The notes under the pieces: generated by a model
Databases searched by the model: none
What the model was told of the DNA's origin: nothing
Seen by the model: the letters and a program-made list of their open reading frames with translations, nothing else
Part shown: positions 10,474-14,525 of the stretch, piece after piece
Layout: each line of letters starts with the position of its first letter
Numbering within the stretch: position 1 is the first letter of the stretch
NCBI GenBank assembly: GCA_000171835.1
Contig: ABHC01000002.1
Location: 248,001-312,000 of the forward strand
Length of the DNA stretch: 64,000 bases
Direction: 5' to 3'
Source of the DNA: an alpha proteobacterium BAL199
Lineage (GTDB): Bacteria > Pseudomonadota > Alphaproteobacteria > Thalassobaculales > Thalassobaculaceae
Translations under genes and position numbers: made by a program

Positions 10474-11352
10474 ATGAACGGTATGCACTTCTATCAAGGC
10501 GCTTGGAGCAACGAACCGCCTCGTGTGGCCGGGCCGACCGACCTCGGTTTCTGGTCGTCGAACTCGGTCTTCGACGGCGCCCGCGCAATCCGAGGCTGTG
10601 CCCCGGATCTTGACCGCCATTGCGCCCGATTGATCCGCTCGGCCCAAGCGATCGGCCTGACACCGGATCTGACGGCCGATGAGGTCTTAGCGCTGTGCAT
10701 CGAAGGCATCCGTGCGTTGCCGGCCGACACGGACTACTACGTCCGGCCGATGTTCTTCTGCCGGGGCGGGGACATCTTGCCGGAAACCGGTACGACGCTG
10801 TTCGCGCTGTCGGTCTTCGAGATGCCGATGCCGGGCGAGAACGCCGGGCGGGCCACCTTGTCGCCATTCCGACGAGCGGCGGCGGACCAGGCTCCGACCG
10901 ATGCCAAGGCCGGATGCCTGTATCCGAATTCCCAACGGGCTCGGCGCGACGCGATGAGCCGTGGCTTCAGGCTGGCGGTGATGCTGGACCCGGATGGGAA
11001 CGTCGCCGAGTTCAGCCACGCCAATCTGTGGCTCGCCAAGGACGGCGTTGCCATCACGCCGAAGCCGAACGGCACCTTCCTGGACGGGATCACCAAGAAT
11101 CGGGTGATGGGGCTGCTGCAGAATGTCGGCGTACGGGTCGAGCATCGGGCTGTGACGGTGGCCGACCTGGACAGCGCCGATGAGATCTGGATGTCGGGCA
11201 ATGCCGGCAAGATCCAGACGGTGACCGGATGGGAAGGCCGCGAACTGCAGCCCGGTCCGGTGTTCCGGCAGGCCCGAGGACTCTATCAGGAGTTCGTCGA
11301 GACCTGCCGGATCGTCGAGATGCCGGAGATTCAGCGTACCGTAATGGCGTAG
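10474..11352 (+). CDS. class IV aminotransferase, branched-chain aminotransferase-like
   Basis: The 292-residue product is a PLP-dependent fold-type IV transaminase, closest in length and motifs to branched-chain amino acid aminotransferases. Visible are the SVFDGARA start of the large domain (31-38), the catalytic lysine K145 in DAKAGCLYPNS, and E179 in VAEFSHANLWL, which contacts the PLP ring nitrogen region. D-amino acid aminotransferase or aminodeoxychorismate lyase activities use the same fold, so the substrate is not certain. A GGAGG site lies 6-7 bases before the ATG. The 3' end overlaps the convergent thiY gene by 22 bases. Confidence 0.85.
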   Translation: MNGMHFYQGAWSNEPPRVAGPTDLGFWSSNSVFDGARAIRGCAPDLDRHCARLIRSAQAIGLTPDLTADEVLALCIEGIRALPADTDYYVRPMFFCRGGDILPETGTTLFALSVFEMPMPGENAGRATLSPFRRAAADQAPTDAKAGCLYPNSQRARRDAMSRGFRLAVMLDPDGNVAEFSHANLWLAKDGVAITPKPNGTFLDGITKNRVMGLLQNVGVRVEHRAVTVADLDSADEIWMSGNAGKIQTVTGWEGRELQPGPVFRQARGLYQEFVETCRIVEMPEIQRTVMA

Positions 11353-12269
11353 CTCTCCACCGGCGGGGTGTTCTTGACCAGGCCGGCGTCTTTCAGAAAC
11401 GCGGCCATACGCTCATACCGACGTATATCGAGAGCCGCCGGGCGGAGCGCGAAACGCGGCAGCGTGTCGCGCCAGGCCCGGCGGTTCAACTCGTCGTTGA
11501 CCTCTGGGTGATTCTTCACGAACAGCTCCCAGGCCTTGTCCGGGTGGTTGACCATGTACTGCACCGCACGCTCGGTGGCGTCCAGGAACCGCGCCAGACG
11601 CGGGTCGGACGACAGGTCTCGGTGGGTGACGTAGATCAGTTGGTCGAAGGGCGGGACACCGTGTTCCTCGATGTAGAAGGCCCGACCCGGCCGGCCGACA
11701 ATGTCCATCTGGTTCAGCTCGAAATTGCGGTAGGCGCCGATCACCGCATCGACCTGACCGGAGATCAGCGACGGCGACAGCGAGAAGTTCACGTTGACCA
11801 GTTCGACGTCGGCAACGGTCAGGCCGACCGTTCGAAGCATGGCGTTGAGCGTTGCCTCCTCGGTCCCGGCGATCGAGAAACCGATCTTGCGGCCCTTCAG
11901 GTCGGCTAGGGTCTTGATCGGTCCGTCGGCCATCACGGTGAGGGTGTTCAGGGGCGTAGCGACCAGGGTTCCGAACCGGACCAGCGGCAACCCCTCGGCC
12001 ACCTGCAGGTGCAGTTGCGGTTGGTAGGACACCGCCACTTCGGCCTTGCCGGCGGCCACCAGCTTGGGCGGATCGTTCGGGTCGGCCGGGGCGATCAGTT
12101 CGACGTCCAGGCCATACTCGATGAACAGGCCGAGTTCCTGGGCGACGATCAACGGGCCGTGGTCTGGATTCACGAACCAGTCGAGCAGGACGGTGAGCTT
12201 GTCGGCGGCGCGGGCCGGTGAGGTGGTCAGCAGCAGTGCGCAGGCAAGCAGGGCGGTCAGCAGGCGCAT
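11331..12269 (-). CDS. thiY: thiamine-precursor ABC transporter substrate-binding protein (NMT1/ThiY-like)
   Basis: The 312-residue periplasmic protein starts with a signal peptide of about 21 residues (RLLTALLACALLLTTSPARA). The mature part begins KLTVLLDWFVNPDHGPL, the signature of the NMT1/THI5-like family that binds hydroxymethylpyrimidine derivatives. An upstream in-frame extension to 12344 was rejected because it would bury the signal peptide. It follows thiX by 16 bases, and both sit downstream of a TPP riboswitch, which supports a role in uptake of the thiamine pyrimidine precursor. No ATPase gene (thiZ) is present next to it. Confidence 0.88.
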   Translation of the reverse strand: MRLLTALLACALLLTTSPARAADKLTVLLDWFVNPDHGPLIVAQELGLFIEYGLDVELIAPADPNDPPKLVAAGKAEVAVSYQPQLHLQVAEGLPLVRFGTLVATPLNTLTVMADGPIKTLADLKGRKIGFSIAGTEEATLNAMLRTVGLTVADVELVNVNFSLSPSLISGQVDAVIGAYRNFELNQMDIVGRPGRAFYIEEHGVPPFDQLIYVTHRDLSSDPRLARFLDATERAVQYMVNHPDKAWELFVKNHPEVNDELNRRAWRDTLPRFALRPAALDIRRYERMAAFLKDAGLVKNTPPVESYAITVR

Positions 12270-12285: not shown

Positions 12286-13053
12286 TCAACGGGTGTCGTC
12301 CGTCTCGCCGGCCTGCCAGGGCATGGCCCGTCGCAAGCCCGCATCGACGGCGGTGTAGAGCGCGACCGAAAGGATCGCGAGGGTGAACAGGGCGGCGAAC
12401 ATCAGGTCGATCTGCATGCGGCCGTTGGCGTGCAGCATCAGGTAGCCGAGCCCGGCCGAGGACCCGACCCACTCGCCGACCACGGCGCCGATCGGGGCGA
12501 CGGCGGTGGCGACGCGCAGGCCCGAGGCCAGGGCGGGGAGGGCCGCCGGTATCCGGACACGCCGGAACAGTTGCGGTCCCTGGCAGCCCAGGGTGCGGGC
12601 GGCGTCGATCCACAGCGGCTCGACCCGGCGCAGGCCGTCGTAGAACGCGGTGGTGACCGGGAAGAAGATGATCAGGGCCGCCATCACCACCTTGCTGGCG
12701 AGGCCATAGCCCAGCCACAGCACCAGCAGCGGCGCCAGCGCGAACACCGGGATCGCCTGGCTGACCACCAGCACCGGCAGCAGCCAGGGGCGAACCGGCC
12801 GGAAAGTGTGCAGCACGGTTGCGGTCGACAGCCCGACCGTGGCACCGAGCACTAGGCCCAGAAGGATCTCGGTGACCGTGATGCCGGCATGATGCAGCAG
12901 GATCGGGCTGCGCTCGACCCAGGCTGCCGCAACCCGGGCCGGGCCAGGCAGGATGTAGGGCGGGGCGGCGGTGAGCCAGACCACGATCTGCCACAGCGCG
13001 ATCAGCCCGACGGCGATCGTCGCGGGACGCGCAAGGCGGGTGACGTGCATCAT
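12286..13053 (-). CDS. thiX: thiamine-precursor ABC transporter permease
   Basis: The 255-residue inner-membrane permease has about six helices and a BPD_transp_1 domain. The ATPase-docking loop, GCQGPQLFRRVRIPAALPAL, lies about two-thirds of the way along. It is the first full-length gene behind the TPP riboswitch. Its ATG overlaps the stop codon of a 23-codon leader ORF (ATGA). A perfect stem (13057-13075) sits only three bases before the start, so efficient initiation may depend on ribosomes arriving from the leader ORF. Partner: ThiY; the ATPase must be encoded elsewhere. Confidence 0.88.
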   Translation of the reverse strand: MMHVTRLARPATIAVGLIALWQIVVWLTAAPPYILPGPARVAAAWVERSPILLHHAGITVTEILLGLVLGATVGLSTATVLHTFRPVRPWLLPVLVVSQAIPVFALAPLLVLWLGYGLASKVVMAALIIFFPVTTAFYDGLRRVEPLWIDAARTLGCQGPQLFRRVRIPAALPALASGLRVATAVAPIGAVVGEWVGSSAGLGYLMLHANGRMQIDLMFAALFTLAILSVALYTAVDAGLRRAMPWQAGETDDTR

Positions 13054-13121
13054 CGCCGGGAACGACGTTCCCGGACGGACGCTGCGTATGGGTCGGACAG
13101 GTCTGTTGCGCGATTGCGCAT
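13050..13121 (-). CDS. 23-codon leader ORF between the TPP riboswitch and thiX
   Basis: An ATG at 13121 stands six bases after a strong AAGGAGG ribosome-binding site placed immediately 3' of the TPP aptamer. The ORF encodes a 23-residue Arg-rich peptide (MRNRATDLSDPY followed by ASVRERRSRR) and ends in a TGA that overlaps the thiX ATG. No strong ribosome-binding site precedes thiX itself. The peptide itself is unfamiliar, and translational coupling is the inferred function. A frameshifted N-terminal extension of thiX is an alternative. Confidence 0.5.
   Translation of the reverse strand: MRNRATDLSDPYAASVRERRSRR
13057..13075 (-). promoter_or_regulatory. stem-loop immediately upstream of thiX start
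   Basis: CCGGGAACG and CGTTCCCGG form a perfect inverted repeat with a one-base centre, ending three bases from the thiX ATG and lying within the leader ORF. No T-run follows, so it is not an intrinsic terminator. A folded stem would hinder initiation at thiX unless opened by ribosomes translating the leader ORF. Confidence 0.5.
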
Positions 13122-13132
13122 CGCTGCCTCCT

Positions 13133-13222
13133 TGCTCCCTCCGCCGGCGTGATCCGGATCAGGTTCGTGGGGTCGTCCGGTTTCCCGGACCTCTCAGCCG
13201 CCCGATTGCGGCTCCCCCGAAG
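13133..13222 (-). ncRNA. TPP riboswitch (THI element)
   Basis: Read on the minus strand, the segment contains in order a GGGGGAGC 5' stem, GGCTGAGAGG (the pyrimidine-sensor CUGAGA motif), a variable stem CCGGGAAACCGG, then GACCCC, GAACCTGATC, and a 3' GCCGGCGGAGGGA. These are the conserved blocks of the thiamine pyrophosphate aptamer in the right order and spacing. It lies upstream of thiX-thiY. A ribosome-binding site (AAGGAGG) follows directly, which suggests translational control, and no terminator hairpin with a T-run was seen. Confidence 0.93.
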
Positions 13223-13292
13223 TGGCGACGCGATCATGCGGCGGGACCGCCCCCTTGGCAAGGGCGCTGCGGTGACGCAGGTTTGCAGTGCC

Positions 13293-14525
13293 ATGGAGAC
13301 CGCCCAAGCCACCCTCAAACAGCCGCTGGATGCGTATCGCGTCGCCCCTGAAGTGACCGCGCGGTGCGATCCGGCGTGGACCCGCTTTGATCCCGACCGG
13401 CTGCCGGCACGGTTTCCGGCACAGCCGATCCTGGTCGGCAACGAGATCTACCGGCATTCGGTCTACGGGCAGAACCACCCGCTCTCGATCCAGCGGGTGA
13501 CGCCGGCGATCGATCTGGCCCGCGCGCTCGGGTGGCTGGATGACACGGTCTATGTCGAGAGTCCCCAGGCCGAGCCGAACCAACTCCATCGGTTCCACGA
13601 CCCGGACTACGTGGCGGCCGTGGTTGAGGCCGAGCGTACCCGGCACGTGTCGGCGGCGGTTCGCGAGCGATACAACATCGGACGGAACGGCAACCCGGTG
13701 TTCGCCGAGATCTTCAGGCGGCCAGCCACGTCGTCCGGCGCCTCGATCTTAGCCGGATCGGCGTTGGCGAAGGTGCAGCGCGGTATCATCCATTCCCTGG
13801 CTGGCGGCACCCATCACGGCCGCCGCGACATGGCCTGGGGGTTCTGCTTCTTCAACGACCCGGTCCTCGGAATCCTGGCGATGCTGGATCACGGGTTGGA
13901 GCGGGTGGCCTATGTCGACCTGGATGCCCATCACGGTGACGGCGTTCAGGACGCCTTCCACGACGACGACCGGGTGCTGACGATCTCGGTACACGAGGAT
14001 CGTCGCTGGCCGAAGACCGGACCGCTGGACGATCGCGCCGGGGGACTGGCCCGCAACCTGCCGGTGCCGACCGGACTAAACGACAGCGAGTTCGCGCTGC
14101 TGGTCACCCGGGCCGTCGTACCGCTGGTCGACCGGTTCTTTCCCGACGCTTTGGTGATCCAGACCGGTGCCGACGGGTTGGCCGACGACCCGCAGGCCAA
14201 GCTGGAGCTGTCGAACCGGGCGCTGTGGGACGCCGTTGCGGCGTTGCTACCGACGGCACCGCGGGTCCTCGTGGTCGGCGGTGGCGGCTACAATCCCTGG
14301 TCAGTGGCGCGGGCCTGGACCGGGATCTGGGCGACCGTGAACGGTCGTGATCCTGACATCGCGCTGACGCCGGAAGCGGAGCGGATCCTGCGCGACCTGA
14401 CCTGGAACCACAGCCGCGGCCGCAACCCGCCGGACCACTGGTTCACCACCTTGGCCGACCGGCGCAATCCGGGGCCGGTGCGCGACGACATCCACCGGAT
14501 CATCGAGGCGGTATTGAAGCCATGA
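13293..14525 (+). CDS. histone deacetylase family (acetoin utilisation/acetylpolyamine-type) amidohydrolase
   Basis: The 410-residue product is a zinc-dependent class II-type deacetylase of the HDAC/AcuC/AphA superfamily. Core motifs are present: the catalytic histidine pair in GGTHHG (about 171-176), the metal ligands D211 and H213 in DLDAHHGDG, an Asp-containing QTGADGLADDP segment, and a GGGGYN loop near the end. Bacterial members remove acetyl groups from polyamines, acetoin-pathway acetyl-CoA synthetase or other acyl-amines; the substrate here is open. The frame extends upstream to 13149 across the TPP riboswitch, so I chose the ATG at 13293; a GTG at 13272 is also possible. The stop overlaps the next gene by four bases. 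Confidence 0.88.
   Translation: METAQATLKQPLDAYRVAPEVTARCDPAWTRFDPDRLPARFPAQPILVGNEIYRHSVYGQNHPLSIQRVTPAIDLARALGWLDDTVYVESPQAEPNQLHRFHDPDYVAAVVEAERTRHVSAAVRERYNIGRNGNPVFAEIFRRPATSSGASILAGSALAKVQRGIIHSLAGGTHHGRRDMAWGFCFFNDPVLGILAMLDHGLERVAYVDLDAHHGDGVQDAFHDDDRVLTISVHEDRRWPKTGPLDDRAGGLARNLPVPTGLNDSEFALLVTRAVVPLVDRFFPDALVIQTGADGLADDPQAKLELSNRALWDAVAALLPTAPRVLVVGGGGYNPWSVARAWTGIWATVNGRDPDIALTPEAERILRDLTWNHSRGRNPPDHWFTTLADRRNPGPVRDDIHRIIEAVLKP

Follow-up and report, generated by a model that had tools for sequence, protein, structure and literature searches.

The closest precedent that we found for a riboswitch acting on a gene through a short coupled ORF is the B12 riboswitch of Mycobacterium tuberculosis ppe2. 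As described in the accessible part of that report (PMC11260477), the riboswitch controls access to the SD of uPPE2, a short uORF in another reading frame; ppe2 itself lacks an SD and overlaps the uORF in an AUGA, and its expression strictly needs translation of the uORF, primarily through termination-reinitiation. For TPP riboswitches, the available excerpt of Barrick and Breaker (2007, PMC2258182) describes direct RBS sequestration with the RBS inside the conserved aptamer core, where the purine-rich 3' end of the aptamer substitutes for the RBS. In Sinorhizobium meliloti metA, the SD of a SAM-II riboswitch is reported, in the portion of the paper at hand, to drive initiation 74 nt downstream while the first AUG is unused (PMC9373788). 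Lastly, the abstract of a study on ATGA gene pairs gives strict termination-reinitiation coupling in 13 of the 14 pairs tested (Huber et al., 2019, PMC6728339). Among the matches listed in our search, which lay mostly outside subscription journals, we did not find a coupled leader ORF behind a bacterial TPP riboswitch.

Here we describe a TPP riboswitch of the alpha proteobacterium BAL199 followed by a mini-ORF and by thiX, within a window of 64,000 nucleotides (the whole stretch of DNA that was analyzed). As judged from the DNA alone, it resembles the ppe2 system as outlined above in the uORF SD that would be gated by a riboswitch, in the SD-less gene and in the AUGA overlap. It differs in the riboswitch class and the phylum, in that the ppe2 SD is described as masked by a separate hairpin and not by P1, and in that ten genomes share the layout, with the ORF at the position which thiZ occupies elsewhere. 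The TPP scheme, in the excerpt that we used, takes the RBS as that of the regulated gene, whereas here it belongs to a coupled mini-ORF. With metA our locus has in common an alphaproteobacterial riboswitch SD and a start about 70 nt downstream, but AUG1 and AUG2 of metA are reported to be in frame and lack a stop/start overlap. The overlap type is that of the pairs of Huber et al. (2019), although theirs are ordinary gene pairs and a riboswitch does not appear in the abstract. The relay itself thus has a precedent; its TPP riboswitch version, with an apparently lost thiZ, would be a new variation in an unusual evolutionary setting.

Table 1. Features of the riboswitch-thiX locus (positions in the window).
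Feature	Position	Strand	Evidence or remark
TPP riboswitch aptamer (THI element)	13118..13228	-	RF00059 59.3 bits, gathering 54.3, full model 1-105
Leader SD AAGGAGG	13127..13133	-	Rfam alignment; anti-SD duplex -11.9 kcal/mol
Leader mini-ORF, 23 codons + TGA (MRNRATDLSDPYAASVRERRSRR)	13050..13121	-	Counterparts in 9 other genomes
Possible small hairpin UGCGC-AAUC-GCGCA	13107..13120	-	Begins within leader AUG
Inverted repeat before thiX	13056..13074	-	At chance frequency, not conserved
ATGA overlap, leader stop/thiX start	13050..13053	-	thiX ATG at 13053
thiX, ABC transporter permease (BPD_transp_1), 255 aa	12286..13053	-	Pfam PF00528 E 8.9e-32
thiY-like substrate-binding protein (NMT1/THI5 family)	11331..12269	-	Pfam PF09084 E 6.3e-69

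The features of the locus are listed in Table 1. The covariance-model score of the aptamer lies above the RF00059 gathering score over the full length of the model, as in TPP riboswitches, and TPP is its presumed ligand. Downstream stand a permease and an NMT1/THI5 binding protein, two of the parts of a ThiXYZ transporter. Based on this context and on customary usage, we take the permease gene to be thiX; its protein had no NCBIfam match above the cut-off, and it is a probable component of a thiamine-precursor transporter. By eye, an apparent signal peptide points to Met26 of the listed ORF as the start of the thiY-like protein. Divergent to thiX, a histone-deacetylase family gene is found on the plus strand (13149-14525); its listed GTG start would fall in the riboswitch antisense, so that the gene probably begins at a more internal codon.

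A first-pass annotation of this DNA had proposed a 23-codon ORF whose TGA overlaps the thiX ATG, and the reading frame is indeed there, with its ATG 5 nt past the SD and its TGA at 13052-13050. The same annotation placed AAGGAGG directly after the aptamer. The SD exists, but it lies entirely inside the stretch matched by Rfam, and its AAGG lies in the 3' strand of P1. An SD within the aptamer is what is expected for direct translation attenuation. Three of the five P1 pairs of the window are standard in the Rfam alignment, and the closest relatives have their SD placed alike with respect to P1. An alternative, longer flank duplex (-20.6 kcal/mol) would take in GAG from the SD together with the complete AUG of the leader.

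The anti-SD duplex of the leader SD falls in the best 0.25% of 2000 random 15-mers from the window, whereas the sequence upstream of thiX reaches -3.3 kcal/mol, near the 45th percentile of these 15-mers, in keeping with the earlier claim that thiX has no strong site of its own. A uORF with its own SD whose stop overlaps the start of an SD-less gene is the ppe2 type of arrangement. Elsewhere in the same genome, the best-scoring TPP riboswitch (L001, G000:C56:42664-42759; 64.5 bits) stands before an apparent hydroxyethylthiazole kinase gene, ThiM by eye, which unlike thiX has an SD-like GAAGGAG close to it. Another TPP riboswitch (L003, G000:C67:414104-414205) precedes what looks by eye like a branched-chain-amino-acid type ABC substrate-binding gene, possibly another thiamine-related importer.

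To compare relatives, riboswitches were detected by a regex and by Rfam scans of 60 loci (57 without a close regex match and 3 checks); those of L096, L100, and L102 come from the Rfam scan. The coupled layout, in which the ATG after the SD opens an ORF ending in ATGA on thiX, was found in 10 genomes of four genera, counted by the numbering of the kinship assignment, with 9 distinct leaders. Leaders of 23 codons are present in the window, in Thalassobaculum fulvum (a relative with a ThiX 85% identical and of the same genus by kinship assignment), in M30B52, and in JABMNR bin.590. Nisaea denitrificans and N. nitritireducens have 20-codon leaders identical to each other, G014, G031, and G022 have 22 codons, and G020 has 15. 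In eight of these ten genomes thiX is without an SD; in the two Nisaea genomes the SDs of leader and thiX are weak alike (-5.0 and -5.8 kcal/mol). For a random leader, the probability of being coupled is 0.04-0.05 and that of being fused 0.17-0.29, values that serve as a guide only, since the leader genomes are kin and the estimates are non-independent.

We then looked at what is conserved in the leader. In the four closest genomes (the window, T. fulvum, M30B52, and JABMNR), leader DNA identity is 45-77%, and the share of changed codons that are nonsynonymous runs from 15 of 18, the lowest, to 11 of 11. Over codons 8-47 of thiX in the same four genomes, identity is 71-89%, this share lies between 5 of 11 and 14 of 22, and the third position is the most changed in all six pairs, narrowly (12 vs 11) for fulvum-JABMNR. 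The M30B52 thiX (L010 / L093, G002:C13) is frameshifted near residues 38-50 in the assembly, and sequence errors may thus affect its leader as well. The leader region of the window is open in all three frames and openness alone therefore says little; the 108 nt preceding the thiX start contain no in-frame stop and no further ATG, GTG, or TTG in that frame. The conservation of the leader ORF thus extends to the layout, kept in the ten genomes, and not to the peptide, which bears no sign of selection. Because the leader peptides diverge freely, it is on the frame and the overlap that selection seems to act.

Twelve further loci have the riboswitch directly before thiX and the riboswitch-proximal start in frame with it. 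These are four of the T. litoreum type (L006, L009, L089, and L092), two of genus g5 (L090 and L091), Oceanibaculum pacificum and three like it (L044, L058, L124, and L126), and L131 and L151. In L131, which is ambiguous, the first ATG opens an 18-codon ORF stopping before thiX, and the second ATG was counted; 21 of the 22 loci are clearly coupled or fused. In all six fused genomes of the same family, the riboswitch-proximal ATG is the sole in-frame ATG before the conserved part of ThiX, and in the four of T. litoreum type its context (AAGGAGGC..ATGCGC) matches that of the leader. The motif UGCGC-N4-GCGCA, or a near form, starts inside the riboswitch-proximal AUG in the window, L004, L010, L005, L006, L009, L089, and L090, which include both leader and fused relatives. 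The hairpin is present in four of these eight predicted folds (window, L004, L010, and L006), and the motif is nearly invariant, which leaves no covariation to judge it by.

The two states also differ in where thiX begins. The median number of residues before a conserved ThiX column is 12 in leader-type rows (n = 10), 13 in thiZ-coupled rows (n = 62), and 26 in fused rows (n = 12); fused thiX therefore begins about 13 residues earlier than leader-type thiX. Leader-type starts do not differ from thiZ-coupled ones (Mann-Whitney P 0.34) and do differ from fused ones (P 0.0002), in a test that is partly circular because leader and thiZ starts were assigned via the overlap and 14 non-NTGA pairs were left out. 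An unbroken longer thiX in relatives had been named in advance as a sign of a frameshift. Such genes do occur, in the fused lineages, but the split state does not read as a lone frameshift, because it is seen in several genera, with thiX beginning at the same position as in thiZ-coupled operons.

In other members of the class, thiZ immediately precedes thiX in 67 of 72 upstream regions. These come from the 78 genomes, out of 385 sampled, in which thiX was matched at E 1e-78; of the six remaining genomes, three belong to the family and three were already in the set. Outside the leader/fused clade, the thiZ stop overlaps the thiX start in an NTGA in 62 of 76 pairs, near-identical genomes being retained in that count. 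The TPP riboswitch-thiZ-thiX-thiY operons of other Rhodospirillales thus share with our locus the riboswitch class, the thiX family, and the NTGA overlap; they have a full ATPase gene where our locus has a mini-ORF. Within the fetched flanks of the leader/fused clade, thiZ was not found beside thiX. The window's operon lacks the ATPase of a ThiXYZ transporter, and Skermanella ThiZ finds in the same genome nine ATPases at only 36-45% identity (150 of 163 candidates scored), whereas the ThiZ proteins adjoining thiX elsewhere are 47-70% identical to it, except that of L113 at 42%. Among 20 same-family genomes with thiX at 65% or more, Skermanella ThiZ had a match in 6 at E 1e-38, with a maximum of 44%, and none in 14; at most 74 candidates were scored per genome, so that absence here is not proof. 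Four g8 genomes have a ThiZ at 53%, but their ThiX is at best remote (48%).

In a ThiX tree of 54 chosen rows, whose bootstrap had not settled and from which L124, L126, L131, and L151 were left out, the 10 leader, 8 fused, and 4 riboswitch-less rows form one clade (100/98). The Nisaea leaders are split from the rest of this clade (86/88 for the rest), and the leader state needs three changes, the fused state two. In L007, L057, L094, and L095 (genus g9), thiX is 71% identical to the window's, and riboswitch, thiZ, and thiY are absent from the fetched flanks.

We also compared the leader peptides with ThiZ ends (9 leaders against 36 N-termini and 76 C-termini, with shuffled controls). Only 1 of the 18 tests stood out, that of N. 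denitrificans with the C-terminus, for which 1 of 100 shuffles was as good, about what chance gives for 18 tests. A thiZ remnant recognizable by sequence was therefore rejected, similarity to ThiZ ends being at chance level, and since the peptides have no clear likeness to these ends, the idea of a remnant rests on position. We infer that the origin of the leader and the disappearance of thiZ go together. The simplest account is a loss of thiZ after which a short ORF, either the stump of thiZ or fresh sequence in its place, preserved the start at the riboswitch and the ATGA terminus, followed in some lineages by fusion to thiX. That the mini-ORF is the stub of an operon gene left by this loss, a pure translational adaptor kept for its frame across at least four genera and later fused in some lineages, is a proposal that we make tentatively and rate at a little under an even chance.

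The sequence just before thiX had been read as a perfect stem of nine base pairs, three bases before the start, that only ribosomes translating the leader would open. There is an inverted repeat of 9 nt around one base; as RNA it gives 8 bp with a 3-nt loop (arms 13074-13067 and 13063-13056), 2 nt upstream of the ATG. Perfect 8-nt inverted repeats with spacers of 0-6, overlapping ones counted apart, number 17 in the window vs 27, 17, and 12 in three shuffles. A stem like it exists only in T. fulvum; different stems are possible in G020 and Nisaea. The gating by this stem is thus unsupported and was rejected, the repeat being at chance level and shared with T. fulvum only. A point against dismissing a stem altogether is that G020 has a different strong stem of its own before thiX (z -2.98), the only one of ten leaders with z below -2 over the last 40 nt. 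The whole leader of the window is more structured than its shuffles (z -2.8), and three of nine distinct leaders (window, G014, and G020) fall below -2; aptamer and leader folded together give a z of -1.15.

Taken together, these comparisons make it likely that TPP gates the mini-ORF, that ribosomes terminating on it reinitiate on thiX, and that the role of coupling partner has passed from thiZ to the mini-ORF. Such a locus would switch translation OFF by way of a relay. With TPP bound, P1 would close and hide the leader SD (in the window genome perhaps the AUG too), and neither leader nor thiX would be made. With TPP absent, P1 would open and ribosomes would translate the 15-23-codon leader, terminate at the TGA within ATGA, and reinitiate at the overlapping, SD-less thiX AUG. 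The sequence of the leader peptide would be irrelevant, with the open frame and the overlap retained, and the leader would be a place-holder at the position of thiZ in most other Rhodospirillales examined, keeping the old coupling. Of the first-pass annotation's proposal, control of the leader by the riboswitch with thiX coupled to it thus gains comparative support, namely the ATGA in 10 genomes and four genera, the start site common with sister lineages, the SD-less thiX in eight of the ten, and the NTGA outside the clade; the stem opening does not.

Several other readings of the locus deserve weighing. The riboswitch SD could recruit standby ribosomes that arrive at the thiX AUG with the leader left untranslated. 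The distance from leader AUG to thiX AUG (68 nt) is similar to the 74 nt of S. meliloti metA, an alphaproteobacterial precedent as far as described in the part of that paper cited above. Such initiation at a distance, however, needs neither frame nor ATGA, yet both are kept in all ten leader genomes over four lengths, at a chance of coupling of about 0.04-0.05 each. Moreover, in the fused genomes of the same family the matching ATG must start thiX, barring a start inside the conserved part. We regard this reading as unlikely, though less so than the others. A single fusion protein made from leader and thiX, through ribosomal frameshifting or stop read-through at the ATGA, would be the counterpart of the N-terminal extension that exists in the fused relatives, and suppression of the AUGA stop is discussed for ppe2 in the accessible text (PMC11260477). 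Against it, the leaders end without a common slippery sequence by eye, which makes fusion by frameshift unlikely; the peptide is not conserved; and, by the partly circular test, thiX of the leader type begins at the short position seen in thiZ-coupled operons. Altogether we consider a fusion protein very improbable.

Equally improbable is that the leader is neutral 5' sequence, the broken N-terminus of a once-fused thiX (through a frameshift or a sequencing error) in front of a weakly self-started gene. Relatives do carry an unbroken longer thiX and frames stay open in GC-rich DNA, but the same ATGA split recurs in the ten genomes of four genera, most of which (8/10) have an SD-less thiX, and the leader-type starts coincide with the thiZ-coupled position. 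A short ORF immediately behind a regulatory RNA also recalls a functional regulatory peptide of the attenuator type. This we hardly credit at all, given the free divergence of the peptide among relatives, the lack of any terminator-like site in 12900-13450, and the absence, by eye, of single-codon runs. A regulatory peptide and a programmed frameshift were accordingly both rejected, the former for its unconserved sequence and the latter for slippery ends that are not shared by eye.

For the annotation of genomes of this group, our results call for caution, to avoid merging or mis-starting thiX. The thiZ, leader, and fused states form a natural series for measuring the contribution of ATGA coupling. 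If the relay from riboswitch through mini-ORF to thiX is true, a riboswitch can act on a gene via a coupling ORF whose sequence is immaterial, and the loss of an operon gene can leave a stub under selection.
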